A stretch of DNA of 64,000 nucleotides. Source: an uncultured Spirochaetaceae bacterium (GTDB lineage: Bacteria > Spirochaetota > Spirochaetia > Sphaerochaetales > Sphaerochaetaceae). The stretch lies in the NCBI GenBank assembly GCA_944389275.1, contig CALXLT010000046.1:1-64000 (forward strand), read 5' to 3'. Below, piece by piece: positions 10,774-28,453 of the stretch; position 1 is the first letter of the stretch, and each line of letters begins with the position of its first letter. The position numbers were made by a program, and so were the translations under genes. A model generated the notes under the pieces. That model was not told where the DNA came from. It did no database searches and saw only the letters and a program-made list of their open reading frames with translations.

Positions 10774-10818
10774 ATCGGAGCAATAGTTTATAAGGGGTTG
10801 TGTAGGAGACTGATATAG

Positions 10819-12120
10819 ATGAACGAACTTGCTGTACAGCTTAATGCGGCGCTTGAGGATTCGTGCGCCTATCCATTCCTTTCCGAGCTTGGGAAGAGGA
10901 TGTATTTCCCGAAGGGGATAGTAGCGCAGAGCGATGAGGCCAAGGAGAAGGCTAAGAGGTACAATGCCACAGTAGGCCTTGCCACAAGCAAGGGGGAGCC
11001 TTTCTATCTTTCAGATATCTATTCATCATTCAAGGATGGCCTTTTCAAGCCTTCGCAGATCTTCTCTTACGCCCCCGGCGGTGGCGATAAGGAGCTCCGC
11101 GCTCTCTGGAAGGCCGACATGGAGGCGAAGAACCCTTCCCTCAAGGGCAAGAAGACATCGACTCCTATCGTCACCGGAGGCCTTACCCACACGATCAGCC
11201 TGATCGCCCAGCTTTTCGTATCCGCAGGGGATGAGGTTGTCTGCCCTGATCTCTTCTGGGATAACTATGACCTCATCTTCACCGATCTAGTGGGAGCGAA
11301 GCTCAAGCTCTTCAGGTTCTATGATGATAAGGGCGGCTTCAATGTCGAGGGCATGAAGGAAGCCCTTCTCGGCACGAAGGGAAGCACAGCCCGCGTGATA
11401 CTCAATTTTCCGAATAACCCTACGGGATACACCCCATCCAAGGATGAGGCGATGCGCATCATCGAGGCCGTGAAGAGCGTTGCCGATACGGGCAAGAAGG
11501 TCCTTGTGATCTCCGATGACGCGTACTTCGGCCTCTTCTTCGAGGATGGCACAGAGAAGGAGTCCCTCTTCTCGTTCTTTGCTGACGCGCATGAGAACAT
11601 CTTCGCCATCAAGGGCGATGCCGCGACTAAGGAGGAGATGGTCTGGGGCTTCAGGATCGGCTTCATCACATACGCATCCAAAGGCTTTACCGATGAGCAT
11701 ATCGACGCGCTGCAGAAGAAGACGCTTGGAGCTATCAGATGCACGGTATCCAACTGCGACAGGCCGGGACAGAGCCTGCTGCTGAAGGCGATCAAGGCCG
11801 GAGATGGCAGGGAGAAGGACAAGGCCGCGCTCTTCGTGGAGATGCAGAGGCGCTACAGCGCTGTGCACAAGGCCGTCTCAAGGCATTCAGGCGAGAGCGT
11901 GATCACTCCTTATCCGTTCAATTCCGGCTACTTCATGGCCTTCGACACCAATGGCCACGATGCGGAGGAGCTGAGGAAGTATCTTCTCGATAAGTACCAG
12001 ATAGGAGCCATCAACATCATGGGCCGCACGCTGCGCCTCGCATATTGCTCGGTTGAGCTTGAAGGACTTGATGATGTGGTGGATACTGTCTATAAGGCTG
12101 CAGGGGAGATATGGAGCTGA
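10819..12120 (+). CDS. PLP-dependent aminotransferase, class I/II
   Basis: The 433-residue protein is a fold-type I aminotransferase. Visible motifs include NFPNNPTGYTPS around residue 195 (the conserved N-P-x-G), ISDDAYFGLFFEDG (the Asp and Tyr that hold the pyridine ring) and FAIKGDAATKEEMVWGFRIGF, which holds the Schiff-base lysine and the phosphate-binding Arg. Substrate is not clear; aromatic or aspartate-type is likely. A GGAG site lies 9 nt upstream. The end overlaps the following ModE-like gene by 10 bp, making it the first gene of an operon that continues into phosphofructokinase. Confidence 0.88.
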   Translation: MNELAVQLNAALEDSCAYPFLSELGKRMYFPKGIVAQSDEAKEKAKRYNATVGLATSKGEPFYLSDIYSSFKDGLFKPSQIFSYAPGGGDKELRALWKADMEAKNPSLKGKKTSTPIVTGGLTHTISLIAQLFVSAGDEVVCPDLFWDNYDLIFTDLVGAKLKLFRFYDDKGGFNVEGMKEALLGTKGSTARVILNFPNNPTGYTPSKDEAMRIIEAVKSVADTGKKVLVISDDAYFGLFFEDGTEKESLFSFFADAHENIFAIKGDAATKEEMVWGFRIGFITYASKGFTDEHIDALQKKTLGAIRCTVSNCDRPGQSLLLKAIKAGDGREKDKAALFVEMQRRYSAVHKAVSRHSGESVITPYPFNSGYFMAFDTNGHDAEELRKYLLDKYQIGAINIMGRTLRLAYCSVELEGLDDVVDTVYKAAGEIWS

Positions 12121-12467
12121 GCACGAAGCTTTACATACTGAGCGATAGCGGCGAGAAGTTCATGGGGGCGGGGGTCCTCTGGCTTCTCGAGGGGATAATG
12201 GAGACAGGATCCCTTCTCGCTTCCTCTCAGCGTATGGGGCTTTCGTACACCAAGGCGCGCATGATGCTGGAGAACATAGAGAAGGCGTTGGGGCGCCCCA
12301 TGATAGACAGGAAGAAAGGCGGAGCGGAGCATAAGGGTGCCCAGCTCACGCCTTTCGCGATAGAATACATAAAGCTCTACAAAGAGTTCCAGAATGACGT
12401 CAAGGCTGAGGCCGAGGCGAGGTTCAGGAGATTCGAAGAGGAGAGCAGGAGATTACTGGAGGCTTGA
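12111..12467 (+). CDS. ModE/LysR-type winged-helix transcriptional regulator
   Basis: The 118-residue protein contains a LysR-like N-terminal helix-turn-helix as found in the DNA-binding half of ModE: GVLWLLEGIMETGSLLASSQ, then LSYTKARMMLENIEKALGRP, then GAQLTPFAIEYIKLYKEF. It has no C-terminal molybdate-binding domain, so it cannot sense molybdate in the ModE manner. A charged C-terminal helix may mediate dimerisation. The gene overlaps the aminotransferase upstream, and the phosphofructokinase start follows its stop by only 2 bp, so all are co-transcribed. Its targets are unknown; the molybdenum hydroxylase operon at 2.5-5.8 kb is one possibility but is only a guess. Confidence 0.72.
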   Translation: MELSTKLYILSDSGEKFMGAGVLWLLEGIMETGSLLASSQRMGLSYTKARMMLENIEKALGRPMIDRKKGGAEHKGAQLTPFAIEYIKLYKEFQNDVKAEAEARFRRFEEESRRLLEA

Positions 12468-12469
12468 AT

Positions 12470-13801
12470 ATGAGCGCAGCTGCAAAGCATTATGACTTCA
12501 CGATCGACAGGCTGGGGGATGCCAAGCTTAATTCCCCTATCCGCATGTCCAAGAAGGGCGGCGATGGCCTTGCCGATTACACGAAGGATACAGATAGGAT
12601 CCTCTATACGATAACGACAGAGGAAGTCGATGGCGCGGTGCGCCCCGTCAGCTCAGACACGCTTGAGCTTGCCGGCCCGCGCGAGAAGATCTACTTCAAT
12701 CCTTCCCATGTCCATGCGGCGATCTGCACATGCGGCGGTCTCTGCCCGGGACTCAACAACGTCATCCGCTCAGTCGTCCGCTGCTTCTGGTACAGGTATG
12801 GCGTCAGGCGTATCTCCGGCATCCAGTATGGCTATCTCGGGCTGCTTGAGAACTCCCCATGGCCGATAATCGATCTCAACCCTGACGTGGTCGATGAGAT
12901 CCAGGAGAAGGGAGGCACGATCCTCGGCTCCGCGCGCGGAGGCGGAAAGCAGGTCGAGGAGATCGTCGACAGCCTTGAGCGCCTCAATATAAACATCCTC
13001 ATCGCGATCGGCGGCGATGGAACGCTCCGCGGCGCGTATGATATCGGAGAGGAGATAAAGAGAAGAGGCCTCAAGATCGCGGTTGTCGGCGTTCCTAAGA
13101 CGATCGATAACGATCTCTCGTTCATCGATTCCTCCTTCGGCTTCGATACAGCCGTATCCACGGCAGTCCCTGTCGTCCGCGGCGCTCATGTAGAGGCCAA
13201 GGGAGCCATAAACGGAATAGGTCTCGTGAAGGTCATGGGAAGGGAGTCCGGATTCATCGCGGCTTCCACGACCCTCGCGCAGTCGGATGTCAACTTCTGC
13301 CTCATCCCGGAGTCCCCATTCGATCTTGAAGGACCTAACGGGCTATTGGAGAACGTGAAGAGAAGGCTCGAGGAGAGGGGCCATGCCGTTATTCTCGTTG
13401 CGGAGGGCGCCGGACAGGAGTTTGCTCCTCCTACAGGCGAGGTCGATGCTTCCGGCAACGTCAAGTATCATGATATCGGCATATTCCTGAAGAACAAGAT
13501 GAAGGAGTTCTTCTCAGAGCAGGGCATCTCCACATCAATCAAGTACATCGATCCGTCATACATCGTCAGGTCAGCCCCGGCGAACAGCTATGACTCGATC
13601 TACTGCGCCCGTATCGGCGCGCACGCGGTCCATGCGGCGATGGCCGGTAAGACACAGTGCATAGCGTCCCTGGTCAACAACCAGTACGTGTATGTGCCTA
13701 TCAAGGTCGCTGTATCCAAGAGAAGCCATGTGGATATCGAGGGCTCTCTCTGGAGGGATGTCCTTGAGAATACGCGCCAGCCGTTCTCGATGAAGAACTA
13801 A
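12470..13801 (+). CDS. 6-phosphofructokinase, group III / plant-like, probably ATP-dependent
   Basis: The 443-residue protein is a phosphofructokinase of the long clade shared by spirochaetes, plants and trypanosomes. It shows TCGGLCPGLNNVIR near residue 88, GGDGTLRGA at 181 and PKTIDND at 209. In this family Gly in GGDGT (residue 184) allows ATP, while Asp at that position marks pyrophosphate enzymes; Lys in PKTID (residue 210) occurs in both. The pair G184 plus K210 therefore predicts ATP as phosphoryl donor, although many databases label the clade as pyrophosphate-dependent. The ATG at 12470 has a GGAGG site; an in-frame TTG at 12464 is less likely. The enzyme catalyses the committed step of glycolysis. 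Confidence 0.88.
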   Translation: MSAAAKHYDFTIDRLGDAKLNSPIRMSKKGGDGLADYTKDTDRILYTITTEEVDGAVRPVSSDTLELAGPREKIYFNPSHVHAAICTCGGLCPGLNNVIRSVVRCFWYRYGVRRISGIQYGYLGLLENSPWPIIDLNPDVVDEIQEKGGTILGSARGGGKQVEEIVDSLERLNINILIAIGGDGTLRGAYDIGEEIKRRGLKIAVVGVPKTIDNDLSFIDSSFGFDTAVSTAVPVVRGAHVEAKGAINGIGLVKVMGRESGFIAASTTLAQSDVNFCLIPESPFDLEGPNGLLENVKRRLEERGHAVILVAEGAGQEFAPPTGEVDASGNVKYHDIGIFLKNKMKEFFSEQGISTSIKYIDPSYIVRSAPANSYDSIYCARIGAHAVHAAMAGKTQCIASLVNNQYVYVPIKVAVSKRSHVDIEGSLWRDVLENTRQPFSMKN

Positions 13802-13803
13802 GC

Positions 13804-14841
13804 GTGCAGAAGGAACCATCATTCTCTGTCAAGCTCTCGCAGCTTGACAGGATGCTTCTCGAATCAAGCCCATTCTACCGCATTGATCTCCTGAGGGTCG
13901 TGATGTCCTTCAGGAGCCTTGGTTCTAGCGATCTTAAGACCCTTGAGGAGTATGCAGACGCAGCGGATGGGAAGATAGAGCGCTGGCTCCTTGTCCCATC
14001 ATCCATGACGCTTGCAGTCCTTGCCTTCACGATAGACAGGGCCTTCGGTCTTATCCCAACACCATCCTCATCATGCTTTGTGCTTCCTCCTGAAAGGCAG
14101 GCGGTATATGCCCCTGACTTGGCGTCCCTTTTCAGGCGCTCTGGAAGCATCTTCTTCAATCCGATTGATGATGAGTACCTGATGAGCGTGGCAGTGGAGT
14201 GCAGCCAGCATGATAACCTCGTGATGGAAGCCCCTTATGACTTTCCTCACAGAAGCTATGATGAGACACAGAGGATCCTCAGGGACTTCAAGCCTTCTGT
14301 CTCCGCTTTCTGGGATAAGCCTGTTACGGAGGATCTCCTTGCTGACGTGTCATTCGAGGCTAAGGAGCCATTCGTGATGGATATCGCGCCATACATCCCG
14401 TATCCATATATCCTGGGCCGTGAAGGCTCTGCCCTTGCGACTCCTGATCAGGCAGATAGCATACTTGAAAAGGGACAGTACAATGTGCGTGGAAGGGGCG
14501 CAAAGCCTCTTACCCACGAGCTGGTGTACAGGAAGCTTTCGGAGGAAGAGCTGGATAAAGGCTTTGAGTTCTCGGTGACACGACCGAAGGATGCCCGCAT
14601 GGTATTTGCAGATGGTTATGTGGATCTGGATGGGTATATAGATTCAGCTCGCTATGTCGCGTCTGAGCTTCTTCCTGACTGCATAGCCAAGATGGGCTAT
14701 GATCTCTTCGGGGAGACTGAGGAAGAGTACCTCTCGTTCATAACGCGTCTTCACGGTCCTGACGCCATCCACTATAGGCAGCTTGCCGAGAGCGCGGGGT
14801 GGAGAGAGCCTTATATTGATCGTAAAAAGGTCCTTCGTTGA
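13804..14841 (+). CDS. Conserved hypothetical protein downstream of phosphofructokinase
   Basis: I do not recognise this 345-residue protein. It starts with GTG 2 bp after the phosphofructokinase stop, so it is probably co-transcribed. It is acidic, without signal peptide or obvious membrane segment, and shows no P-loop, nucleotide-binding or metal motifs. Phrases such as RGRGAKPLTHELVYRKLSEE and FADGYVDLDGYIDSARYV read like a folded cytoplasmic protein. Codon use matches the preceding genes, so it belongs to the chromosome and not to the neighbouring AT-rich island. It is the last gene before the island boundary. Confidence 0.7.
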   Translation: MQKEPSFSVKLSQLDRMLLESSPFYRIDLLRVVMSFRSLGSSDLKTLEEYADAADGKIERWLLVPSSMTLAVLAFTIDRAFGLIPTPSSSCFVLPPERQAVYAPDLASLFRRSGSIFFNPIDDEYLMSVAVECSQHDNLVMEAPYDFPHRSYDETQRILRDFKPSVSAFWDKPVTEDLLADVSFEAKEPFVMDIAPYIPYPYILGREGSALATPDQADSILEKGQYNVRGRGAKPLTHELVYRKLSEEELDKGFEFSVTRPKDARMVFADGYVDLDGYIDSARYVASELLPDCIAKMGYDLFGETEEEYLSFITRLHGPDAIHYRQLAESAGWREPYIDRKKVLR

Positions 14842-15082
14842 TGCTTTTGCAGCTCACTTTGTAGGATTTCTTAAAGAGAGTGAACAGCAAAATTTTAGAT
14901 ATAATTATATATTTTACAAGTAAATAACGTAGAGCCTTTCGCTATGTTGGCAATGAAAGTGGAATAGCGTTTCAAAAATTTTGAAAAATTTATCGAAAAG
15001 TACTTTTCATTCTTCTCTCATTTCGATATATTACTGGCTGAAAGTGGAAGCAATAGCACTTCCATTCTAACCTCCTTTTGTT

Positions 15083-15125
15083 CCCCACAAACCGTTTACC
15101 TCCTTTTACCGGATGTGGGGTTTTT
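15083..15125 (+). terminator. Rho-independent terminator
   Basis: CCCCACA (15083-15089) and TGTGGGG (15114-15120) form a 7-bp GC-rich stem with a 24-nt loop, followed directly by TTTTT. In plus orientation it would end the transcript of the phosphofructokinase operon, about 240 bp after its last gene. Confidence 0.7.
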
Positions 15126-15156
15126 ATTCACTTCATACTTTACGATGTAACAGCTG

Positions 15157-15184
15157 GGGCTATCCCAAGGGGTGGCAATAGCCC
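15157..15184 (-). repeat. Stem-loop downstream of Mrr-like gene
   Basis: GGGCTAT (15157-15163) and ATAGCCC (15178-15184) form a 7-bp stem with a 14-nt loop, 12 bp beyond the minus-strand stop of the Mrr-like gene. There is no T tract, so termination is uncertain. Confidence 0.4.
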
Positions 15185-15195
15185 GCAACTGGGAA

Positions 15196-16368
15196 TTATT
15201 CCATTGCAGCATATGCTGTCTTTCTCAGCCAGGAAATTCCGGCTGCATTAAGCCACATGTTTACAAGTTCTTCACAGCCTATGAACTGGATGCTTTGCAG
15301 CCATTCAGAAGGGATTTCTTCCTTTGCATTGATACTATCGAGCTTTTTCTGGATTTCATCAGCGGCATTTGCATTGTTTTTCTCCCATGTATGGAAAGGG
15401 ATAACTATGGTAGCCTCTTTTGTTTCTGGGCAAAATTCATACAAAGACTTGATTGCGTCATTTAGCTCAGATTCCTTTAGCTTGGCTTTGCTTTGAACAT
15501 ATATTGTTTTCCCTGGCACTTCCGATTTATCTGAAGCTTTGAGTCCTATGTTATTGAAAGGTAGCTGGTACTCGCCGTCAATTGTTTTCATGTTGCTTCC
15601 ACTTCGCCCCATTCTTCTTAATCCCGATTGCGTGAATACCATATCGACAAAAGCTTCGAAGTCTGCTGGAGCTAGCAAACGGACAGCCTCACATAGTTGT
15701 GATTTAAGTTCTTGTAACTGAGTATCGAATGGTTCGAGTTTATCACATTTCTCAGAACCGATTGTCCATTTGAAAAGGTTTATTTCGTCTTTGTCTTTGA
15801 GTTCGAACATTGTTCCTTGTACCATCTGTTTGCGTCTTAGTTGTCCACAGATTTTCCATTCATCCAATGTTCTTTTTTCATCAATACTCTTGTTGTTCCA
15901 CTTGCTAGTGTAGCGGATTAGATCACTTTGTCTACATTCCTTGGACTGAGTACCAATCATATCCTTACGGAATTCTTTGTTTTTTCCTGGAGCTCCAGTA
16001 GGCTTACACCACCAAAGAAAACCATTATGGAATGTAAAGAAGATGTCCGTTTCATCAGCCATGCATACATTTCTTATTGTATTCCTAGCTTTTGTAACTG
16101 TAGAGGGCTTTATTTCCTTATTCATTCTTTTTGAAGTTGTGATGATATCGTCATCAACACATTGCCAGCATTTTAGCTTCTCCTTTTCATCAGCATCATT
16201 TCCCAGAGCAAGTTCTGAATCTATTGCTTGGTTAATGACATCATCATGAGCTTCATTGAAGCCTAGACATATACCTGGTTTCTCACAATCATCAGGGTTG
16301 AGATATTTCTCACAAATTTTGTCCCGCTTTGAGTAAGAACCCATCTTAATGCAGAAGATCCTGTTCAT
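15196..16368 (-). CDS. Mrr-like restriction endonuclease-fold protein
   Basis: The 390-residue protein has a C-terminal region that resembles Mrr-type PD-(D/E)XK nucleases: LLAPADFEAFVDMVFTQSG near residue 240, IDGEYQL near residue 275 as a candidate acidic motif, and TIYVQSKAKLKESE near residue 300 giving the Q-x-K motif typical of Mrr. The N-terminal half has eight or so cysteines and a WWCKPTG stretch and may recognise DNA or a modified base; I cannot name it. The ATG has an AAGGAG site. Its promoter carries a TATAAT -10 at 16424-16419 whose -35 position falls in a TGACA-N5-TGTCA box shared with other island genes. Codon use is AT-rich, unlike the left flank. Confidence 0.6.
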   Translation of the reverse strand: MNRIFCIKMGSYSKRDKICEKYLNPDDCEKPGICLGFNEAHDDVINQAIDSELALGNDADEKEKLKCWQCVDDDIITTSKRMNKEIKPSTVTKARNTIRNVCMADETDIFFTFHNGFLWWCKPTGAPGKNKEFRKDMIGTQSKECRQSDLIRYTSKWNNKSIDEKRTLDEWKICGQLRRKQMVQGTMFELKDKDEINLFKWTIGSEKCDKLEPFDTQLQELKSQLCEAVRLLAPADFEAFVDMVFTQSGLRRMGRSGSNMKTIDGEYQLPFNNIGLKASDKSEVPGKTIYVQSKAKLKESELNDAIKSLYEFCPETKEATIVIPFHTWEKNNANAADEIQKKLDSINAKEEIPSEWLQSIQFIGCEELVNMWLNAAGISWLRKTAYAAME

Positions 16369-16436
16369 TGTCTTTTCTCCTTTTTGAATGATTATAAACT
16401 GATCTGAGCTGATAGATGATTATAGATATTAAGTCC

Positions 16437-16451
16437 TGACAATACCTGTCA
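16437..16451. promoter_or_regulatory. Island palindrome 1 (Mrr-like gene promoter)
   Basis: TGACA-ATACC-TGTCA is a perfect inverted repeat with N5. On the minus strand a TATAAT -10 (16424-16419) sits 17 bp from the hexamer 16447-16442, so the box covers the -35 of the Mrr-like gene. Occupancy would be expected to block RNA polymerase. Confidence 0.65.
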
Positions 16452-16481
16452 CAAACAAGATCAGTCCGTTTATCTGATCAA

Positions 16482-16496
16482 TGACAGATTATGTCA
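16482..16496. promoter_or_regulatory. Island palindrome 2 (Nudix promoter)
   Basis: TGACA-GATTA-TGTCA is a second perfect copy, centred 45 bp from palindrome 1. It covers the -35 position for the TACTTT -10 at 16510-16515 of the Nudix gene. Because it lies inside the first codons of the longer frame starting at 16481, it argues that translation really starts at 16520. Confidence 0.65.
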
Positions 16497-16509
16497 TATT
16501 CCATCGGAA

Positions 16510-16515
16510 TACTTT
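16510..16515 (+). promoter_or_regulatory. Putative -10 of island Nudix gene
   Basis: TACTTT ends four bases before the ATG at 16520 and lies 21 bp from the centre of palindrome 2. There is no strong ribosome site, so the message may be leaderless. Confidence 0.4.
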
Positions 16516-16519
16516 GCTC

Positions 16520-16957
16520 ATGGAATGGTATAGGTATTACGGTGCCGGGATAATCCCATATTTCATAACGGATGATGGGGATTGCTGCGTGCTGCTTGAG
16601 AAACGATCTTCTGATCATACATGGGCAATCCCCGGAGGAGGTTACTCTTCCTCCTCTGATGGGATGATTGATTCTGAGTCTGATCTTCTGAGTACAGCAT
16701 TGCGGGAATTGAAGGAAGAGACGGGCCTGGTTATCAAGAGAGAAGCCGTCTGGAATGTCAGGACATATAAATTGTCTTTCTTCACATATTCGGTATTTGC
16801 GGCGTCGATGGATAGCAAGGCTAAGCCTGTATTGAATCATGAATCTGAAGCTGCTGGTTGGTTCTCTCTTAATGGATTGCCAGATGGCATGAATTTCATG
16901 ACAAGGAAGGAGATATCGGACTTCAGAAGGAGGATTGGATATGGGAAGCAGGAATAA
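16520..16957 (+). CDS. Nudix hydrolase, island copy 1
   Basis: The 145-residue protein has an N-terminal YYGAGIIPYF strand, a LLEKRSSDHTWAIPGGG segment and a Nudix box around residues 45-75 ending in RELKEETGL, with an insert of about nine residues between GGG and the helix compared with the standard box. Nudix proteins hydrolyse nucleoside diphosphates linked to another group. It is paralogous to the protein at 27770-28180: both share YYGAG-IPY, LLEKR-DHTWAIPGG and LPDGMNFMT. Start is set at 16520 because an operator-like palindrome occupies the region before it; 16481 is the alternative. It leads the plus-strand half of the island. Confidence 0.85.
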   Translation: MEWYRYYGAGIIPYFITDDGDCCVLLEKRSSDHTWAIPGGGYSSSSDGMIDSESDLLSTALRELKEETGLVIKREAVWNVRTYKLSFFTYSVFAASMDSKAKPVLNHESEAAGWFSLNGLPDGMNFMTRKEISDFRRRIGYGKQE

Positions 16958-17025
16958 TGGACGGCCTTATGCTTTGCGGTATTTCGACAATGCAGAGGAT
17001 CTCTTGATTTGCTGAAGGGGTGAAT

Positions 17026-19314
17026 ATGGATTTCGTGCATCTTCATAACCATACGGAGTATTCACTTGCTGATTCCATCGCAAGGATCACAGATTATATC
17101 GATGCTGCGAAAAAGAACGGGATGACAGCGCTTGCCATAACCGATCTTGATAGCATGGGCGGAGTCTTGGAATTCTTCAGCAAATGCAGGGAGGCTGGCA
17201 TAAAGCCAATCATTGGCCGTGAGACAAGCATAGAGAACATGGGGCAGAGAAGGGAATGGGTAAGGCCTCGTATTGTGTTGCTGGCAATGAATAAGACCGG
17301 GTATCGGAATCTTCTGCATCTGAATTATGTTTCACGTAAGGCTGATTACGATGACCCAGTCGTCAGTTACTTGAATCTGGAGAATCATAGCGAGGGGCTT
17401 ATATGCCTGTCTGCGTATCTTGAGGGCGAGCTTGCCCGTGATTTGCTGGCTTGTGATTATCTTAAAGCTAAGACTATTGCCCTGCAGTTCAGGAAAATTT
17501 TCGGTGATAGATATTATATTGAGATACAGGATCACGGCACAGAAGAGGATCGGATCCTGCTGCCACGCCTCTGTGACTTGGCTGATAATCTTGGGATAAA
17601 GACTGTATGCACTAACGATATCCATTACATATGGAAGAAGGATGCAGATGTCTTGGATACCCTTGCATGCATCGAGCACTATCGGCTGAAGGGGAGAACG
17701 GTAAATGGTGAGAATTATTTCAAAAGCCAAGAAGAAATGGAGGCGCTTTTCGATTGGTGGCCTGAAGCCATCAATGCGACATTTGAGATTGCGGAGCGAT
17801 GCAATCTGGATATAAGCACTCCTGATATCGGCCTGCCGGATTATATGATTCCGTCTGGATTTCCTTCCGCAGATGAGTATCTGATGTATCTTGCCAATGA
17901 AGGGCTTAAGGAACGTTATAGCGATATAACACCGATGATCCGGCAGCGCATGAATCATGAGCTCAGTGTCATAAGAGATAAGGGATTGGCCTTATTCTTC
18001 ATCATCATTTGGGATTGCCTCCGCTTTGCAAGATCAAAAGACATGAGAATCTGGCCAGGACGAGGTAGAGTTGCTGGATCGATAGTATGTTATGCCCTCA
18101 TGATCACGGATATCGATCCTATGGAATACGGGCTGGTTTTTGAGAGCTTCATTAATCCTTTGCAGTCTCCTCGTTTACCATATCTGGAAATCTGCTGTGA
18201 GGATAAGAATAGACTTATTGGCTATGTTGCAGAGAGATATGGCTCAGATTGTGTCGCGATGGTACTCGCTGATTATGAAAGGTACGAATCGGCAGACGTG
18301 CTGCGGGCTGTTGGCCGTGCTTTTGGATTGGCGGAGAACAGAGTGCTGTACATGAAGCATTTCCTGGAGTATGTTCCCGAAGGCGATATCGATCTTGCGT
18401 TGGAGACGCTTCCTGGATTCAGGGAAGAGGTTGAGAGCCTCTCCTGCAAAGAGGAGTTCCTGTATAACATAAGGATGATCACCGGTCTGATAAAATCAGT
18501 CTCTCCATGCCGGTCTCGGATAGTGATTGCTGATAAGCCGATCTATACGGAGATTCCCGTGTCGGACATGCGTGGCTGCCAGTTGCCTGTCGTGCAGCAT
18601 AGTGATATCGAGATGGCTGGATATGATCTTTGCAGGCTGTGTGTATCTGATTCAGTTGCCTTGCGAATACTCAAGCAGACAGAACACCTGATAAGGAAGA
18701 AGGAACCAGGATTCGATATAAACCGTATTGGGTATCATGATGATAGGACTTTTGCCTTGTTATGCTCAGGCTCTGAGAATCGGCTTGGCTGGCTGCATTG
18801 CATAGAAGAACATGATATCGATCTGGTATCAGCACTGGATGAGATTCAGCCACGCTGCCTTATGGATATAGCGGCTGCATTCTGCCCTAATCCTGAAGAA
18901 TTCATAGAAGCAAAAGATGCTTATGATGATTCCGTTACTGCATTCCCTGAGCTTCGCGGCGTGCTGTCTGAGACTTATGGAGTGCTTATGTATCAGGAAC
19001 AGATGATCATGATTTCCCAGATCATAGCTGGCTATTCCCCTGAGGAGGGTGATATTCTCCGCAGGGAAATCGGGAAACGCTGGAAATCCACGCTAGATCA
19101 TGAGCATGGACGGTTTCGGGAAGCTGCGATCAGAAACGGCTACACGGAAACGGAAGCTGAGATTATTTTTCATATTCTCTGGTATTCCAATGGGGCTCCT
19201 TGCAAATCCCATGTGCTGCCGTATGCTGTCATTGCATATCAGATGGCTTATCTGAAGGCACATTACTCCGAGCAGTTTGATGCTGTTGTTTCTCGTTTTT
19301 CTGAAGAGCTATGA
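17026..19314 (+). CDS. DnaE-like protein with destroyed polymerase active site
   Basis: The 762-residue protein aligns along its length with the short DnaE at 23797-26145. It keeps the PHP-domain start (FVHLHNHTEYSL), VCTNDIHYI, the INPLQ region, VLSETYGVLMYQEQ and CKSHVLPYAVIAYQMAYLKAHY. But the catalytic PDIDVDF motif is PYLEICC at residues 385-391, so all its acidic metal ligands are lost; GRGSSAGS is GRGRVAGS; MDFLELK has no Asp equivalent; and the PHP TDH motif is TDL. It cannot be an active polymerase by family knowledge. It also lacks the C-terminal OB, clamp-binding and tau-binding regions. An AAGGGG site precedes the ATG. A structural or regulatory partner role is inferred. Confidence 0.85.
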   Translation: MDFVHLHNHTEYSLADSIARITDYIDAAKKNGMTALAITDLDSMGGVLEFFSKCREAGIKPIIGRETSIENMGQRREWVRPRIVLLAMNKTGYRNLLHLNYVSRKADYDDPVVSYLNLENHSEGLICLSAYLEGELARDLLACDYLKAKTIALQFRKIFGDRYYIEIQDHGTEEDRILLPRLCDLADNLGIKTVCTNDIHYIWKKDADVLDTLACIEHYRLKGRTVNGENYFKSQEEMEALFDWWPEAINATFEIAERCNLDISTPDIGLPDYMIPSGFPSADEYLMYLANEGLKERYSDITPMIRQRMNHELSVIRDKGLALFFIIIWDCLRFARSKDMRIWPGRGRVAGSIVCYALMITDIDPMEYGLVFESFINPLQSPRLPYLEICCEDKNRLIGYVAERYGSDCVAMVLADYERYESADVLRAVGRAFGLAENRVLYMKHFLEYVPEGDIDLALETLPGFREEVESLSCKEEFLYNIRMITGLIKSVSPCRSRIVIADKPIYTEIPVSDMRGCQLPVVQHSDIEMAGYDLCRLCVSDSVALRILKQTEHLIRKKEPGFDINRIGYHDDRTFALLCSGSENRLGWLHCIEEHDIDLVSALDEIQPRCLMDIAAAFCPNPEEFIEAKDAYDDSVTAFPELRGVLSETYGVLMYQEQMIMISQIIAGYSPEEGDILRREIGKRWKSTLDHEHGRFREAAIRNGYTETEAEIIFHILWYSNGAPCKSHVLPYAVIAYQMAYLKAHYSEQFDAVVSRFSEEL

Positions 19315-19335
19315 GCTTCATGTCTGCATCAAGTA

Positions 19336-19350
19336 TGACAGAAATTGTCA
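19336..19350. promoter_or_regulatory. Island palindrome 3 (WYL regulator promoter)
   Basis: TGACA-GAAAT-TGTCA is a perfect copy of the island box. Here it lies 18 bp upstream of the -35 of the WYL gene and does not cover it, centred about 61 bp before the start codon, which would suit autoregulation or activation. Confidence 0.6.
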
Positions 19351-19368
19351 ATAGTTGCATGTTTTCCA

Positions 19369-19397
19369 TTGATTGTTTCTGGCTGCGGTCATACGAT
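19369..19397 (+). promoter_or_regulatory. Promoter of WYL regulator, leaderless
   Basis: TTGATT (19369-19374), a 17-bp spacer and TACGAT (19392-19397) form a good sigma-70 type promoter. Six bases separate the -10 from the ATG at 19404, so transcription would start at the start codon. No ribosome site is present. Confidence 0.6.
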
Positions 19398-19403
19398 GCA
19401 GAT

Positions 19404-20414
19404 ATGCAGTATGATAATCTTTCCACCAAGCTCAGCGTTGCGGCGTTCATCGCAAATGGCAATGGCAGATCGGTAAATGAGATTGCCAGCCATTTCGGGA
19501 TATCCACCCGTACAGCCTACAGGCTCCTTGATAGATTGCAGATGGAAGGGTATCCGCTGACAAATGAGGAATTGAGCAGGGGAAGGGAAAAGCTCTGGAC
19601 GATGCTTAGCCATGATGAGGATGGATATGGAAATCCTCTGCCATCATCTGACTTCACCCCGGAAGATGAGGTATTCATTCATTATGTGCTGACAGAGGCA
19701 AAGGCTCTTGAAGCAGCTGTCCCGGCTTTTTCCAGGACACGGACAAAGCTGGTGAATCTCCTTGGCAGCAAGGGGCTCTCTTATCCTTCGATTGATTACC
19801 CCGACTATATGAAGAGGAAGCTTTTCCCGATAGAGAACATAAAGAGCATAGGGAAGGGAGCTTCAAAGAAGGTCAGGGAGAATATCTCCATCATATTGAG
19901 CGCGATTCAGGATGGGAAGAAGTGCAATATGGCATACAATGTCCCGAATTATAAGACGACACACCCTGTTGTATCCCCTGTATTCTGCTTTTTCTATGAT
20001 GGAGGGATGTACCTTCAGGCCATCATGGATGACGGGACGCTCCGCACATATGCGATCGAGAGGATCAGTGATATCTCGATCATTGAAGGTAGTCTGGCAG
20101 TAAGGCCTGATTTCGATCCGCATCTGCTCCTTACCGATCCTTTTGGGCCGTTCATCGGGAAGGAGAAGATAGAAGCAGAGGTATGGATAGCTCCTGAGCA
20201 GGTGCAGTACGTGAAGGAACGTATCTGGCCAGATTCCGTGACCATTGAGGATCAGGAAGATGGTTCTGCCCTGTTCAGGGTGACGACATATGGAAAGCAT
20301 GAGCTTATCAACTGGATACTGTCCCAGACTTCCTCCGTGAAGGTCTTGAAGCCACTTTGGCTGCAGGATAAGATCAAGGCAGAGCTGCAGGCCATGTGCG
20401 GATTGTATAAATAA
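19404..20414 (+). CDS. WYL-domain transcriptional regulator
   Basis: The 336-residue protein has an N-terminal helix-turn-helix (SVNEIASHFGISTRTAYRLLDRL, residues about 23-45), a central WYL domain with the phrase GGMYLQAIMDDGTLRTYAIERISDI, and a C-terminal WCX-like region ending SVKVLKPLWLQDKIKAEL. WYL regulators of the BrxR/CapW/PafBC type bind palindromes and often control phage defence or DNA-damage genes, responding to nucleic acid ligands. It is the only regulator in the island and is the best candidate to bind the TGACA-N5-TGTCA boxes. The start at 19404 is preferred over 19311 because a full promoter and a box occupy the intervening bases. Confidence 0.88.
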   Translation: MQYDNLSTKLSVAAFIANGNGRSVNEIASHFGISTRTAYRLLDRLQMEGYPLTNEELSRGREKLWTMLSHDEDGYGNPLPSSDFTPEDEVFIHYVLTEAKALEAAVPAFSRTRTKLVNLLGSKGLSYPSIDYPDYMKRKLFPIENIKSIGKGASKKVRENISIILSAIQDGKKCNMAYNVPNYKTTHPVVSPVFCFFYDGGMYLQAIMDDGTLRTYAIERISDISIIEGSLAVRPDFDPHLLLTDPFGPFIGKEKIEAEVWIAPEQVQYVKERIWPDSVTIEDQEDGSALFRVTTYGKHELINWILSQTSSVKVLKPLWLQDKIKAELQAMCGLYK

Positions 20415-20422
20415 ACATTACA

Positions 20423-20437
20423 GGACAGGATCTGTCA
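20423..20437. promoter_or_regulatory. Island palindrome 4 (helicase promoter), one mismatch
   Basis: GGACA-GGATC-TGTCA differs from the consensus box at one base. A TATCCT -10 at 20449-20454 lies 17 bp from hexamer 20426-20431, so the box again covers the -35. Confidence 0.5.
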
Positions 20438-20487
20438 TACTTCAGCCATATCCTTAAGCATGATCCTTTCATTCAGGAGAAAATGTT

Positions 20488-21459
20488 TTGGATAGAATCG
20501 AAGATAACGAAGATTATGGCAGGCAAAGGAATATCGAGAATACTGAAGAGCAGACCGATGAGGATGAATTCAGTGAATATCTGATATCAAATGATGTTTG
20601 CAATTATGTGGACTGTATGATCAGGCACTTGGAAGGAATTTCTGAGAATGACGCAATATCCTCAGGTGTCCCTTCCTTCGATAGATTTATAAATGGCGGA
20701 TTCCATCGTAATGAGTATATGGTTATAGGAGCCCGACCCGGGGTCGGAAAGACTTCCTTTATCGTTACATTGATCCGCAATATGCTTTCAGAAGGCAAGC
20801 GTGTCGCGTTCTTTTCCCTAGAGATGTCAAAACAGGATATAACAAAGCGTCTTATTGCTAGCTACACAAGAATCAGTCTACGTTCGATATGTGATTTTGA
20901 TTTGATTGATGAGGATAGCATGGTCCGGATTGTGGATGCAGCTAATAAACTGTATTCACAGCCTATTTATATCATTGATACACCTGCTATCAAGCTGGAT
21001 GAATTGAAGGAAAAAGCAAGAGGGATACGGCCGGAAGTACATTGTATATTAATAGATCACATAGGCCTTATCGATACCGGGCTTGACATAAACATCCCCC
21101 GATGCGAGAAGATAGCAGTAGTATCCAGCGCCCTTAAACAGCTTGCAGATGAGCTCTCTGTACCGATCATATGTTCATTACAGCTTCCAAGGGATCATCT
21201 TCATCGTGATCCTTCAGTATCGAATCTTCGCGATATGTCTTGTGTAGTACAGGATGCTGATACGGCTCTATTCATCCACAGAAAGACCGCACGTTCCAAA
21301 TGGGAGAAGCAGGATGATTTAAGGGATGGAGAAGGCAATCCAGTTATACAGGCTGTCAAGATCATCATTGAAAAGAACAGGACTGGTGAGACGGGCTCAT
21401 TCGAGTTAGGGATGAATACCAATACGGTGTCGTTCGAGGAAATAACACAATATCAGTGA
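20488..21459 (+). CDS. DnaB-type (SF4) helicase core without N-terminal domain
   Basis: The 323-residue protein matches the RecA-like C-terminal domain of replicative helicase DnaB. Walker A is GARPGVGKTS at residues 81-90 (K88), the H1a-like FFSLEMSK follows, Walker B is HCILIDHIGLI, then CSLQLPRD and a final KNRTGETGSFELGMNTNTVSFEEI that matches the DnaB end with its arginine finger region. The first 50 residues are acidic and unrelated to the DnaB N-terminal domain. Full DnaB is about 450 residues. Translation starts at TTG 20488 with an AGGAGA site; no in-frame ATG fits. It is probably an ATPase that moves on or senses single-stranded DNA, alone or with the DnaE pair. Confidence 0.85.
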   Translation: MDRIEDNEDYGRQRNIENTEEQTDEDEFSEYLISNDVCNYVDCMIRHLEGISENDAISSGVPSFDRFINGGFHRNEYMVIGARPGVGKTSFIVTLIRNMLSEGKRVAFFSLEMSKQDITKRLIASYTRISLRSICDFDLIDEDSMVRIVDAANKLYSQPIYIIDTPAIKLDELKEKARGIRPEVHCILIDHIGLIDTGLDINIPRCEKIAVVSSALKQLADELSVPIICSLQLPRDHLHRDPSVSNLRDMSCVVQDADTALFIHRKTARSKWEKQDDLRDGEGNPVIQAVKIIIEKNRTGETGSFELGMNTNTVSFEEITQYQ

Positions 21460-21569
21460 TTCATAGAAGCTGAGGTGCAAAGGTATTAGGAAAAGAGTTC
21501 GGAGTATTACGGCTGCCGGGAGCGTTAAGGACGGTAATCTAATGCTGTTTCATAGGAGAATCGGATAAA

Positions 21570-22901
21570 ATGAATAATGCGATTGCTGATTGTTATCTTG
21601 AGCAGATGAAAACAAGAAAACTCTCGAAAAGGGAACTCAAGGAAGCGGTCTATGCCTCAATACGAAGCAGCAACGCCAAGCTCCTTGAAGCCTGCATGGG
21701 GAAGCTTCCGAATAGTGAAGGATACTGGGGTGAGGATGGATATCCCACATATTTCGCAATCAGGGAGATGGCCTCTTCTGAGATTATCAGGATCCTTGTC
21801 GAGAGCGGATATAAGCTTCCATACTATCCAGATCTTCTCCCCTTCAATGGCACTCCCGAGGAAATGATCAGTCTTCTCATGAGAGATGAGAAAATCGACA
21901 GGAAAGAGGCGATATCATCACTCCTTTTCAAGGTCAACTACTATATCGGTGTAATGTCTATGGGATACTCCTGTCACAGAGTACCTTTCCGTATCAATCC
22001 CGATGATGAGTATGAGCCATGCTTCTTCTTATATCTCGATAACTGGCTTTCAGAGCTTGCTGTCCTCTTAGAGGAAGAAGAGTACGAGCTTGATATGAAG
22101 CACATAGGCATATCTGTCGGAGCCATCGCAAGTCATCCTGAGCTGATAGGAGCCTTCAAGACGCTTATCAATACAAGATTCTTTGATAGGAGCATGATTG
22201 GATGGTATATGAACGATGCCTTGGAAGGGGATAATGAGGAGGCTTTCCGCATTCTCCTTGAGCTAGCCGATGAGGAGAATCTACAGGATATACAGGTTTA
22301 TCCAAGAACAAGCATGGAGCTTCTCAATCAGCTTCTCGAGCTGAATATCCTTACTCCAGGGACAGATAAGGCATATGAAGCCTTCAGACATTATATTTTC
22401 AGAAAAAAGGTTGGCGAGGAAGAGGAAGAGATACTCAGAGCCATAATGCATCCTTCCTATGGGAGCCGAAGGTGTGAATCAGGAGGAACGCTTCTGATGG
22501 ATGCAATCCTTAACAAGGATTTTGAGCCATGGCTCTATCCTGTCCTTGTCACTTCTCCTGAAGAGCTTAATGCAAGAGATAGCAAAGGAAGGACTGCCCT
22601 GTATTATCTTGCTAAGGGCGATTATCCGGAATGCCTTGGAGTTCTTACGAGCATGGGAGCAATACCCTTCTGTATTGATGAGAAAGGGAATAATGTACTC
22701 CATATACTGCTTGGAGGAGATTGGCAGATTACCCTTGATGATATTGTGTATGACATGGGATACCTTCCAAAAGAGCTTATAACCATGAGGAATGCAGAAG
22801 GAAAGACTCCAATTGATATCCTTGCGGATAGGCTTTATGAAAGCAAATTGAGTAGTGACGGAGAAGCTATCCTAAGCCGTATCCTTGCTTCTCTTTCCTG
22901 A
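21570..22901 (+). CDS. Ankyrin-repeat-type protein, island copy 1
   Basis: The 443-residue protein is helical and has degenerate ankyrin-like repeats, clearest near the C-terminus: LNARDSKGRTALYYLAKGDYPECLG, then IDEKGNNVLHILL, then MRNAEGKTPIDILADRL. It is a clear paralogue of the protein at 26208-27506; both share an N-terminal REA-IYAAIRxxxxxLLxACxGxL segment, a GYSxxRxPFxxNP motif near residue 145, and IMHPSYxxRxC. The conserved middle region is not one I recognise and may be a specific module of this system. An AGGAG site precedes the ATG. It probably mediates protein contacts. It follows the helicase gene by 110 bp. Confidence 0.7.
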   Translation: MNNAIADCYLEQMKTRKLSKRELKEAVYASIRSSNAKLLEACMGKLPNSEGYWGEDGYPTYFAIREMASSEIIRILVESGYKLPYYPDLLPFNGTPEEMISLLMRDEKIDRKEAISSLLFKVNYYIGVMSMGYSCHRVPFRINPDDEYEPCFFLYLDNWLSELAVLLEEEEYELDMKHIGISVGAIASHPELIGAFKTLINTRFFDRSMIGWYMNDALEGDNEEAFRILLELADEENLQDIQVYPRTSMELLNQLLELNILTPGTDKAYEAFRHYIFRKKVGEEEEEILRAIMHPSYGSRRCESGGTLLMDAILNKDFEPWLYPVLVTSPEELNARDSKGRTALYYLAKGDYPECLGVLTSMGAIPFCIDEKGNNVLHILLGGDWQITLDDIVYDMGYLPKELITMRNAEGKTPIDILADRLYESKLSSDGEAILSRILASLS

Positions 22902-22964
22902 GCTCTGCCAGCATATGACATATATGAATGCCAGAATGTAAGCCGATTTAAGGAGATCTGCTTT

Positions 22965-23744
22965 ATGATTGACCAATTCTCGCTCCGTTGGAAAGAAGCT
23001 TGCGATCTTATTGATTATACATACCCGGAAGATCTTGATATCTGGAAGGGTATAAATGAGGGTGTCATTGATATCTCGTCACCTGTGCTGGATAGGCTAT
23101 CTCCTGGCGATGTCGTTTGCATGAATAGCATCAATTATGCCTATTTCTTCCTCTTTGATATGCTGCGCCCTGCTATCCTGGATTACACTCCATTTGCAAT
23201 GCTTTCCTGCAGTAAGCTTACTTATGTTTTCCAGAACAGGATGTTGTTTTGTTCTCTTTGTGATGAATATGAGTCAGATGAGACTGTAATGGAAATGTTA
23301 TCATCGAGATCAATCCTATCGAAACGGATAAGGGCCAAGAGATTCTGTGAGCTGGAAGATGAACTTGAAATCCTTGCGGAGAAAGGATACAGGACCATAA
23401 TCCTCGCTCATGTTCCCGATCTGCCGTATCTTGATGCTGAGTCAATAGGTAAAGGATATGCTGATCATTATGATGCCCTGAAGAAAGCAGCAATGAGATA
23501 TGGCTTATCTCTGATAGCCATTACATCCACATATCTTCTTCCTAAGAATATAGATGGCATAACGACCCTCAAGGTAATACCAGAAAGGAACAGGCTTCTT
23601 CTTGCGCCTCCTGAAATTCTCACAGTCACTGTTGATGAGGAAAAGAAATACAGATTCCACATCGATGATGACAACGGAGCCATGGCTGGGTTCCGCATCG
23701 GGGGAAGAAATGTGCTTCTAATAAGGAAGGATGAGAGAGAGTGA
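22965..23744 (+). CDS. Unknown protein, possibly a P-loop-less RecA-fold relative of the helicase
   Basis: The 259-residue protein has no safe family match. Its order of segments resembles a DnaB-type core: VLDRLSPGDVVCMNSINYAY where a helicase has RPGELVVIGARPGMGKTS, then YRTIILAHVPDLPYL where Walker B would be, then YDALKKAAMRYGLSLIAITS like the helix and strand before the helicase glutamine. The P-loop Gly and Lys are absent. If this reading is right it would be an inactive partner of the helicase, as the DnaE-like protein at 17026 is of the polymerase. It has an AAGGAG site and ends 53 bp from the convergent DnaE gene. The RecA link is a weak inference. Confidence 0.4.
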   Translation: MIDQFSLRWKEACDLIDYTYPEDLDIWKGINEGVIDISSPVLDRLSPGDVVCMNSINYAYFFLFDMLRPAILDYTPFAMLSCSKLTYVFQNRMLFCSLCDEYESDETVMEMLSSRSILSKRIRAKRFCELEDELEILAEKGYRTIILAHVPDLPYLDAESIGKGYADHYDALKKAAMRYGLSLIAITSTYLLPKNIDGITTLKVIPERNRLLLAPPEILTVTVDEEKKYRFHIDDDNGAMAGFRIGGRNVLLIRKDERE

Positions 23745-23796
23745 TTTCTCTGCCTCATCCTTTGCCAAGTTTGTATCAGTTTAGATTCATCTAGGA

Positions 23797-26145
23797 TTAG
23801 AGCATTGTATTTATCTCGCAGTCAATCTTATCAACTTCCCGCATTGCTGCGTAGAACTCATCGGGATAGTTCGCCTTCAGGAATGCAGTCTGGTAGGTAA
23901 TTATAGAATAAGCGACAGCGTGAGACTTGTTGACGCCATAGCCCGCGAAAGGCTCGAGGATGTGGAATATCTCCTCGGCGTGCTCCTCCGTGAAGCCGTT
24001 CTTCACGGCCCCAGCCTTGAACTTCACGAGCTCGGCCGCGAGCGCCTCCTTCTTCTTCTTGCCCATTATCCTGCGGAGGATATCCGCCTGTCCGAGCGTG
24101 TATCCCGCGATTATCTGGGCGACCTTCATGACCTGCTCCTGGTAGACGATGACCCCGTATGTCTCCTCCAGCACGTCCTTCAGGCACGGGTCGGGGTACT
24201 CTATCTCCCTCTTGCCGAGCTTGGAGTCGATGTACTGGTCGATGAACTGCATCGGGCCGGGCCTATAGAGAGCGTTCAAGGCTACAAGCTCTTCAATTGT
24301 CTGTGGTTGCAATCTTCTGAGAACATCGGATATCTCCTCGGATTCAAACTGGAAGAAAACACTTTTTGAATCACCTTTGTCGAGCATTTCAAAAGTCTTC
24401 TTGTCCTGATCATCTATCTTGTTGATATCGAAATCAGGATTCTTTATCTTCACAAGCTCTTCAGCACGTTTGATCAGGGAGAGCGCCTTGAGTTCTAGGA
24501 AGTCCATCTTTACAAGGCCGCATTTCTCAATCTGCAGCATATCGTATTGCGTGGCTATCTTTCCTGTTTCAGGATCTGTGAATAGAGGAACGTAGCTATC
24601 GAGGTTCTCTCGGCCTATAACCAATCCAGCACCATGAAGTGATAAGCGCCACTTCAGGCCTTCCAGGCGGCGTGCTGTATCAAACAGCTCCTTGAATATT
24701 CTGTTCTTGTTCTTGAACTCTTTGAGTTTTGGTTCATACTCGAATTCTTTTTGACTCACTAGGCCCGGAACATCAGGAATGTACGAACAGATTCTTTTTA
24801 CTTCATGATGTTTAATACCAAGAACTTTGGCAATTTCTGTTATTGCAGTTTTAAGATTCAGTCTTTTTAATGCGACTATGTCCGCTACTTTGTCTTTTCC
24901 GTATTTTTCTGTCACATAGCTGATGACTTTATTCCGCCCCTCGATACAGAAGTCCACATCGATATCCGGCTGCAATAGTGAAATACATTCTGGATTGATG
25001 AATCTCTCGAAAGACAGATCATACTTGAATGGATCTACGTCTGTGATTGCCAGAGAGTAGGAAACAAGAGATCCAGCGGAACTTCCTCTTCCTGGGCCTA
25101 CCAGGATGTTATGTGTTTTAGCCCAATTAACGTAATCCCAGACTACTAGAAAGTAATCCACATATCCTCTCTGTATGATGATGCAAAGTTCATAGTCCAG
25201 TCTCTGCTGAATTTCTTCGCTAATAACCGGATAGCGTTTTTTCAGGCCTTCATTGGCGAGATACGTGAGGTATTCAGCCTTATCCTTGAATTCATATGGG
25301 ATTGTAAGTTCTGGAAAAACCGGGCCAGGAAACTTTATCTCAAGTTTGCAGCGCTTAGCAATCTTCTCTGTGTTCTCGACAGCCTCTGGACACCAGCTGA
25401 AAAGCTTGGCCATTTCTTCTGGGGTTCTGAAGTAGTACTGCCCCTTCTTGTACCTACGTCTGTTCGTATCAGCTTTCTTCGACTTTGTTTTGATGCATAG
25501 AAAAGTATCATGAGCATTCCAGTCCCTCTTCTCAATGTAGTGAATGTCGTTTGTGCATACCAAAGGTATATCAAGTTCATGTGAAAGCTGAGTAAGAAGC
25601 TGATTTGCTTTTTTCTCTTCCTTCAAGCCATGATCCTGCAGTTCAAGGTAGTATCTGTCCCCAAAGAGATTCTTATACCAGAGTGCAGAGTCCTTTGCTT
25701 TTTCATAGTCATTTGATAAAAGCAGTTGAGGGATTTCTCCCTCAATGCATGCTGAGAGACAGATAAGATCGCTCGAAAACCTGGAAAGCGTTTCCTTGTC
25801 GATTCTTGGTTCTTTATGAAAACTTTCCGTGTACGCAATCGAGTTCAGCTTCATCAGATTATGGTAGCCTGTATCATTCATCGCAAGCAGTACAAGATGG
25901 TAGTTGTTATTGTTTTTCTTATGTCTATCTTTTGCTGCAATATTGAACTCAGTGCCTATGATCGGATTGATGCCAGCACGACGGCAGGCCTCATAGAAGC
26001 TTATTGCACCGGACATGTTTCCATGGTCTGTGATTGCAAGAGAGGACATACCGCATTGCCACGCCTTTTTGATGTATTGGGGAATCGAAGCTATGCTATC
26101 CATAAGCGAATAGTCTGTGTGGTTATGTAGATGAATGAATCCCAT
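23797..26145 (-). CDS. Short DnaE-type DNA polymerase III alpha, catalytically complete core
   Basis: The 782-residue protein holds an N-terminal PHP domain (HLHNHTDYSL at 5-14, ITDHGN at 38-43, CTNDIHYI near 197), the palm motif GRGSSAGS at 352, PDIDVDF at 393-399, MDFLELK as the third acidic motif, and fingers ending GYGVNKSHAVAYSIITYQTAFLK. It ends right there: the helix-hairpin-helix, beta-clamp motif, OB and tau regions of full DnaE (1,100 or more residues) are absent, so it should be poorly processive. The ATG at 26145 has an AGGAG site and matches the start of its paralogue; an in-frame ATG at 26211 is less likely. The last 150 or so codons are GC-rich and host-like while the rest is AT-rich. 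Confidence 0.88.
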   Translation of the reverse strand: MGFIHLHNHTDYSLMDSIASIPQYIKKAWQCGMSSLAITDHGNMSGAISFYEACRRAGINPIIGTEFNIAAKDRHKKNNNNYHLVLLAMNDTGYHNLMKLNSIAYTESFHKEPRIDKETLSRFSSDLICLSACIEGEIPQLLLSNDYEKAKDSALWYKNLFGDRYYLELQDHGLKEEKKANQLLTQLSHELDIPLVCTNDIHYIEKRDWNAHDTFLCIKTKSKKADTNRRRYKKGQYYFRTPEEMAKLFSWCPEAVENTEKIAKRCKLEIKFPGPVFPELTIPYEFKDKAEYLTYLANEGLKKRYPVISEEIQQRLDYELCIIIQRGYVDYFLVVWDYVNWAKTHNILVGPGRGSSAGSLVSYSLAITDVDPFKYDLSFERFINPECISLLQPDIDVDFCIEGRNKVISYVTEKYGKDKVADIVALKRLNLKTAITEIAKVLGIKHHEVKRICSYIPDVPGLVSQKEFEYEPKLKEFKNKNRIFKELFDTARRLEGLKWRLSLHGAGLVIGRENLDSYVPLFTDPETGKIATQYDMLQIEKCGLVKMDFLELKALSLIKRAEELVKIKNPDFDINKIDDQDKKTFEMLDKGDSKSVFFQFESEEISDVLRRLQPQTIEELVALNALYRPGPMQFIDQYIDSKLGKREIEYPDPCLKDVLEETYGVIVYQEQVMKVAQIIAGYTLGQADILRRIMGKKKKEALAAELVKFKAGAVKNGFTEEHAEEIFHILEPFAGYGVNKSHAVAYSIITYQTAFLKANYPDEFYAAMREVDKIDCEINTML

Positions 26146-26188
26146 AGGTTTTCTCCTTTTGTATAATTTGGATTGCTGTTTGTTGTTT

Positions 26189-26200
26189 TCCTGTACAGGA
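26189..26200. promoter_or_regulatory. 12-bp palindrome upstream of short dnaE
   Basis: TCCTGTACAGGA is a perfect palindrome 44 bp before the DnaE start, just upstream of the -35 position for a TTATAC/TATACA -10 near 26166-26160. It is not the same as the TGACA-N5-TGTCA box, though it lies in a similar place. Confidence 0.45.
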
Positions 26201-26207
26201 TTTGTGT

Positions 26208-27506: not shown

Positions 27507-27515
27507 ATTGATTCC

Positions 27516-28180: not shown

Positions 28181-28220
28181 CCTTTTCTCCTTTGGATGAT
28201 TGAATTCTATTGCATAAGTA

Positions 28221-28235
28221 TGACATTCCCTGACA
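28221..28235. promoter_or_regulatory. Island palindrome 5 (Nudix copy 2 promoter), degenerate
   Basis: On the plus strand TGACA-TTCCC-TGACA differs from the consensus box at one base of the second arm. On the minus strand the -10 TAGAAT (28209-28204) lies 17 bp from hexamer 28232-28227, so the box again covers the -35. Confidence 0.5.
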
Positions 28236-28331
28236 CGGAAGAAACCAGAGAATAAATAATAGGCCTAGGTTTTTCTTATCAGCCCAAGGGAACAAAAGTT
28301 AATTTCCAGGAAACAATCTACAAAGGAAAAA

Positions 28332-28345
28332 TGCAACATGTTGCA
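28332..28345. promoter_or_regulatory. Operator-like palindrome, copy 1
   Basis: TGCAACATGTTGCA is a perfect 14-bp palindrome followed by GAAATC. An identical copy lies 84 bp downstream, before the DUF4143 ATPase gene. Confidence 0.6.
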
Positions 28346-28429: not shown

Positions 28430-28453
28430 AAAATCTATTGCAGAGGTGCCTTT

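Follow-up and report, generated by a model that had tools for sequence, protein, structure and literature searches.

A catalytically dead DnaE kept with putative helicase look-alikes in an accessory gene cassette of a Spirochaetaceae bacterium

What is a replicative DNA polymerase kept for once the residues of catalysis are gone? The question is raised by an open reading frame in the genome of an uncultured Spirochaetaceae bacterium, within the 64,000-nucleotide stretch of DNA analysed here (the window). The frame runs uninterrupted from an ATG at 17026 to a stop codon at 19312–19314, bearing out the 762 open codons reported in a first-pass annotation of this DNA; an in-frame GTG at 17020, 5' of this ATG, overlaps the ribosome-binding site AAGGGG. 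PF02811, PF07733 and PF17657 each match the encoded protein above the Pfam cut-off, establishing homology to the PHP, palm, thumb and fingers domains of DnaE, and TIGR00594 matches it with 554 bits and homology over its whole length. The protein ends near residue 801 of the 1160 in E. coli DnaE and therefore comes without the HhH, clamp-binding, OB and tau-binding parts.

With residues numbered after E. coli DnaE (from NC_000913.3), Tyr occupies the site of D401, Cys that of D555, Cys or Glu that of D405, and S364 and K553 are both replaced by Arg. The motif changes listed in the first-pass annotation (PDIDVDF to PYLEICC, GRGSSAGS to GRGRVAGS, MDFLELK to LCVSDS and, in the PHP domain, TDH to TDL) are all present. 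The accompanying statement that every polymerase acidic residue is lost stands for the aspartate triad of an active C-family polymerase (D401, D403, D555) but is too strict as worded, since position 403 holds a gap in some alignments and Glu in others, the gapless reading placing Glu there. The PHP motif reads HHDLERYDH against HHDHEHCDH, with three of the nine ligands gone (H4, H6 and C7), and so departs from the active phosphoesterase motif HHDHEH[C/H]DH. Every intact replicative DnaE examined keeps D401, D403 and D555, as do 31 of 31 viral DnaEs that could be aligned at all three positions, which places the loss of the triad beyond ordinary variation. On these sequence grounds the product of 17026–19314 is a DnaE pseudoenzyme consisting of PHP, palm, thumb and fingers only and predicted to be incapable of polymerising.

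Five other genomes in two genera carry a short inactive DnaE of this kind. Intact copies of about 750–785 residues are found in G017, a member of the window's genus, and in G111, G113 and G114, which belong to another genus of the same family; the copy in G035 is cut by a contig end. The expectation that other genomes would hold an intact inactive homologue was thus borne out. The five form a clade supported at 100/100, and with the window gene, the G035 fragment and G080 omitted the remaining four still cluster at 100/100. The window gene joins this clade at 100/100 on long branches, its placement becoming unsure once clade members are omitted. Its nearest kin is a mere remnant in G005, and a scan of genome contigs returned nothing beyond a distant DnaE of 27% identity. 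In G080, from another family of the class, a separate-looking dead DnaE carries D401I, D403S and D555Y and appears to have lost the triad independently; it too overlaps a WYL gene, as in the window. A single origin of all dead DnaEs was considered and set aside: the branches are long and the window gene floats when placed without the clade, so that one loss or several are both possible. Adjoining the dead DnaE–WYL pair of G080 (L041, on G080:C54) are RecT, Mu Gam-like and REase-ARP genes. The dead DnaE of G017 (L035:11727–18609, on G017:C44) is neighboured by an unknown protein of 553 aa, by a pair resembling toxin and antitoxin, and by a helicase-type protein of SF1 for which PADLOC gave MkoA/MkoC-like matches.

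The window gene lies in an accessory island, the features of which are as follows.

15136–28321, no strand: accessory island of 13.2 kb, missing from the sister species G037
15196–16368, minus strand: 390-aa protein with no family match, possibly restriction-endonuclease-like; a 67% homologue in G005 adjoins the remnant of the same inactive DnaE
16481–16957, plus strand: NUDIX hydrolase 1 (PF00293, 41 bits), 46% identical to NUDIX hydrolase 2
17026–19314, plus strand: dead truncated DnaE of 762 codons with PHP, DNA_pol3_alpha and DNA_pol3_finger matches, triad lost
19311–20414, plus strand: HTH-WYL-WCX transcription regulator (PF25583, PF13280), in translational overlap with the dead DnaE, its start sharing four bases (19311–19314) with the DnaE stop
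20488–21459, plus strand: mini-DnaB (PF03796, 194 bits), 51% identical to the host DnaB
21570–22901, plus strand: ankyrin-repeat protein 1 (Ank_2, below the curated cut-off), 39% identical to ankyrin-repeat protein 2, with a match in 25 of 139 family genomes
22965–23744, plus strand: 259-aa cassette protein with a predicted DnaB/RecA-type helicase fold and no Walker A motif
23797–26211, minus strand: second truncated DnaE, which retains its catalytic and PHP residues and falls among the replicative DnaEs of the genus
26208–27506, minus strand: ankyrin-repeat protein 2 (Ank_4, 31 bits)
27516–27788, minus strand: conserved 90-aa protein of unknown fold, 56–70% identical in seven other loci
27770–28180, minus strand: NUDIX hydrolase 2 (PF00293, 54 bits)

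The extent of the island was defined by comparison with G037, which matches the window at 9073–13856 (80%) and 14956–15135 (93%) on the left and at 28322–28444 (in pieces) and 29708–30181 (97%) on the right. There the flanks meet within about 140–150 bp of other DNA, indicating that the 13.2 kb are absent. GC3 of the island genes is 0.37–0.57, compared with 0.63–0.84 for the neighbours and the replicase. In G017, genes for BrxL, PglZ, BrxC and BrxP and for a 702-aa protein (L219:1945–14313, on G017:C35) stand directly downstream of the island-flanking PFK gene, with some 1.3 kb separating this BREX operon from the insertion point homologous to that in the window. The absence in G037 and the BREX genes in G017 mark this one site as an accessory site that is also used by defence genes; the wider interval holds PDC-S05 (a PADLOC candidate) in G043, a Vsr-like gene in G024 and an integrase in G032. 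No terminal repeats pairing the two island ends were found. At the left border, 14956–15135 is non-coding, contains a terminator-like hairpin and is 88–94% conserved in three relatives; Rfam returned no RNA gene at the island border, this segment included. At the right border, a 33-bp element with the palindrome TGCAACATGTTGCA is present in two copies (28319–28351 and 28403–28435) beside an AAA_14/DUF4143 gene (28415–29749), while G037 has a single copy of the element and is missing that gene.

The gene families of the island recur together in G111, G112, G113, G114, G013, G005, G038, G045, G034, G035 and G017, the loci of genus g12 being among them. Copies vary in order and completeness, the order of the NUDIX, 90-aa and ankyrin genes is usually constant, and a gene for a 274-aa protein is often present. 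The cassette of G013 has no DnaE, which makes DnaE an optional module. The 259-aa protein and a short or inactive DnaE are found together in eight genomes; taken singly they occur in 10 and 12 of 139 (hypergeometric P 7e-9, kinship not corrected). Defence genes are not the sole neighbours of the cassette, several copies being flanked by housekeeping genes. Nmad3 genes adjoin the dead DnaE in G111 and G114.

Two members of the cassette extend the likeness to the replisome beyond DnaE. Mini-DnaB is the DnaB helicase domain alone, without the N-terminal domain; in the window copy Walker A and B are kept and, by alignment, the conserved RDSGxIEQ loop is altered. The 259-aa protein had no match in family searches. 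Its AlphaFold model (pLDDT about 80–90 in the core and 59 overall, with poor ends) has DnaB as its best Foldseek match (E 2.6e-5), also matches T7 gp4 and Twinkle, and gives VIA Z values of up to 12.9 (3.3 Å over 169 residues), with hexameric helicases in the top rows. An hhalign profile comparison with DnaB is collinear, at an E value (0.019) that is weak on its own. None of 11 homologues carries a Walker A P-loop (GKT or GKS) at the P-loop position. The 259-aa protein therefore combines a RecA-type helicase fold, predicted by a model of moderate overall confidence, with the absence of Walker A, for which a dead DnaB-like protein is the best reading. A fold search with the 274-aa protein gave no match (best Foldseek E 1.1).

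Such a composition might be thought to belong to a mobile element or phage satellite, in which dead replisome parts would, to the element's own advantage, steer or poison replication in a rival element or in the host. The distribution of the cassette is patchy, with several copies and remnants per genome; the low GC3, the presence/absence difference between sister species, the RecT and Mu Gam-like genes by the G080 dead DnaE and the integrase near the same site in G032 would all suit this explanation. We consider it unlikely, as the island yielded no recognisable gene for an integrase, capsid, terminase or conjugation, and alignment searches of viral contigs returned no relative of the 259-aa or the 274-aa protein. 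A single-sequence search of viral contigs gave no match. An origin of the cassette in viruses was rejected on the same absence of relatives and on the retention of the Asp triad by viral DnaEs.

The second short DnaE, at 23797–26211, raises the issue of a polymerase pair. Besides the two DnaEs of the window, this genome was found to encode a third, full-length at 1144 aa, on contig C5; PolC was not found in it. The protein from 23797–26211, whose start overlaps the stop of ankyrin 2 by four bases, retains the Asp triad together with the complete set of nine PHP residues (HHDHEHCDH) and aligns with the dead DnaE at 39% identity over 777 columns. It terminates at about E. coli residue 812; the HhH and the regions that bind clamp and tau are missing. 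Its identity to the genome's replicase is 71%, and it groups in the tree with orthologues from G018, G045 and G034 inside the replicative DnaEs of the genus. The G018 orthologue carries D401G, D405A and D555Y, and that of G034 is a broken pseudogene. Truncation, nesting and the inactivated G018 orthologue together indicate a young truncated copy of the replicase and not a normal polymerase. The active paralogue described in the first-pass annotation thus retains the catalytic aspartates but is itself truncated and recently copied, and its G018 orthologue is stripped of D401, D405 and D555.

The dead DnaE could be a structural partner of this protein, in the manner of ImuB and DnaE2, the two together making or regulating an accessory polymerase. 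Both are encoded in one island, the short DnaE has its triad and nine PHP residues, and dead polymerase partners are described for ImuB in a 2026 survey (PMC12926913). We nonetheless regard such a partnership as improbable: the dead DnaEs of G017, G111, G113 and G114 come without an active short DnaE, none adjoining in G017 or in genus g12, and the proposed partner is the truncated, tau-binding-deficient protein whose G018 and G034 orthologues are triad-less and broken. The pairing proposed at first pass is accordingly not supported as worded; the recurrent partners of the dead DnaE are instead NUDIX, ankyrin, WYL, mini-DnaB and the putative dead DnaB-fold protein.

Divergence within the dead DnaE is uneven. 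The PHP domain is 43–47% identical to that of the host DnaE, and identity falls to 8–16% in the thumb and second palm segment, which are nearly free to change; the best-kept regions are PHP, first palm and fingers, at about 0.25–0.47 identity. Every full-length dead copy in the family retains H1, H2, D3, E5, D8 and H9 of the PHP motif, and a NUDIX gene adjoins. The PHP domain might then bind metal with its six remaining ligands and act as a phosphoesterase, alone or on a NUDIX-related product. This appears very unlikely given that the window gene and the inactive clade have both lost H4, H6 and C7, and that the 2026 survey (PMC12926913) counts any deviation from HHDHEH[C/H]DH as inactive.

Selection was measured by NG86 on pairs of inactive-clade relatives of the window gene. 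dN/dS was 0.24 for G111/G114 (dS 0.08), 0.18 for both G113/G114 and G111/G113, and 0.17 for G017/G035, the last on partial sequence. These values are far from 1 and show that the relatives of the window gene are held by purifying selection, under a constraint weaker than that on replicative DnaE (0.04–0.09, with dS near saturation). For the window gene, with 762 residues and 1.39 changes per residue on its end branch, a nonsense/missense opportunity of 0.05 predicts about 50 stops under neutrality where none is observed, an expectation that spans the whole end branch and does not reach the latest few percent of the gene's history. Its codon pattern remains frame-specific. The earlier suggestion of a protein kept intact without catalysis is therefore upheld by the inactive homologues of other genomes and their dN/dS. 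That the gene is a decaying DnaE duplicate, open merely by chance, is most improbable: related short DnaEs have indeed become a pseudogene in G034 and a remnant in G005, and the dead DnaE is less constrained than the replicase, but the clade's dN/dS, the missing stops, the frame-specific codons and the 4-base overlap with WYL all speak against it.

Within the cassette, rates differ from gene to gene. Between G113 and G114 the dead DnaEs are 58% and the mini-DnaBs 46% identical, compared with 85–91% for the NUDIX, ankyrin and WYL proteins and 79% for the 259-aa and 274-aa proteins. Such unevenness would suit a recognition module that changes fast, or alleles that have been swapped; either is compatible with recognition of something variable, and neither proves it. 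As dS is also unequal between the genes, recombination may account for the faster divergence seen in DnaE and mini-DnaB.

Catalysis being excluded by the sequence, binding is the role that would remain for the dead DnaE, and since its relatives are kept under selection, the dead copies probably act by binding something. DnaE and DnaB are host proteins that many phages must recruit. We tentatively favour a model in which the cassette encodes replisome look-alikes that act through binding, as decoy or sensor, with the WYL, NUDIX and ankyrin proteins providing control or response. In this model the dead DnaE and DnaB copies would bind what the replisome ordinarily encounters, whether protein or DNA, candidate partners being phage factors able to capture the host's DnaE or DnaB; the copies would serve as decoy or sensor of a replisome-targeting factor, and the WYL/NUDIX/ankyrin part would set expression or carry the response. 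The look-alike cassette probably acts in defence. A more far-reaching proposal, possible but doubtful, is that of a new form of immunity in which dead truncated replicase and helicase copies act as decoys or sensors for replisome-hijacking phage proteins and are renewed, time and again, by copying of host genes followed by loss of catalytic function. Stages of such a cycle might then be seen in the young short DnaEs, which look active in the window and are dead in G018, in the old inactive clade and in the G080 case, which stands apart. If a decoy or sensor role holds, the host parts copied for immunity would come to include replication proteins.

Comparison with known proteins sets the dead DnaE apart. 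Among the C-family polymerases (PolC, DnaE1, DnaE2, DnaE3), it resembles DnaE1 over its full length in PHP, palm, thumb and fingers, and differs in its lost triad and PHP ligands and its missing C-terminal parts. Among polymerases of the B and Y families, dead members are known. ImuB, of the ImuA-ImuB-DnaE2 mutasome, likewise has a polymerase fold minus catalytic residues and sits beside DNA-metabolism genes; it is a Y-family protein, however, and the window protein matches C-family and PHP families only. Neither the clamp-binding motif nor the SOS context of ImuB, nor a linked active DnaE2, was seen with the window DnaE. The accessible part of the 2026 C-family survey names no catalytically dead group (PMC12926913), and an open-access literature search returned no paper on DnaE paralogues that are dead or truncated, or on DnaB decoys. 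The dead C-family DnaE described here is conserved in more than one genus, and the same cassette appears to hold copied and degraded versions of DnaB, another protein of the replisome: relative to DnaB, mini-DnaB differs by its missing N-terminal domain and changed RDSG loop, and the 259-aa protein, which shares the predicted fold, by its missing Walker A. With anti-phage systems (BREX, restriction-modification, candidate PDC) the cassette has in common a WYL regulator, patchiness and a site near the BREX genes of a congener. It differs in corresponding to no described system, PADLOC giving generic WYL, P-loop and NUDIX matches only and no specific defence model for the DnaE, ankyrin, 259-aa or 274-aa proteins.

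Several cassette copies have further neighbours. Genes for GIY-YIG, Nmad2/Nmad3 and DUF1643 proteins, families tied to modified-DNA conflicts, lie beside copies at L087:11726–12598, L088:9288–11216 and L095:7352–7891. By the G035 cassette, L095:5029–7308 encodes a large ankyrin-type protein of about 760 aa, and the mini-DnaB there is reduced to 219 aa. The window also contains an IS200/IS605 pair (TnpA-like and TnpB-like) at 6488–8180, and a similar pair is found near the cassette in G111 (L090).
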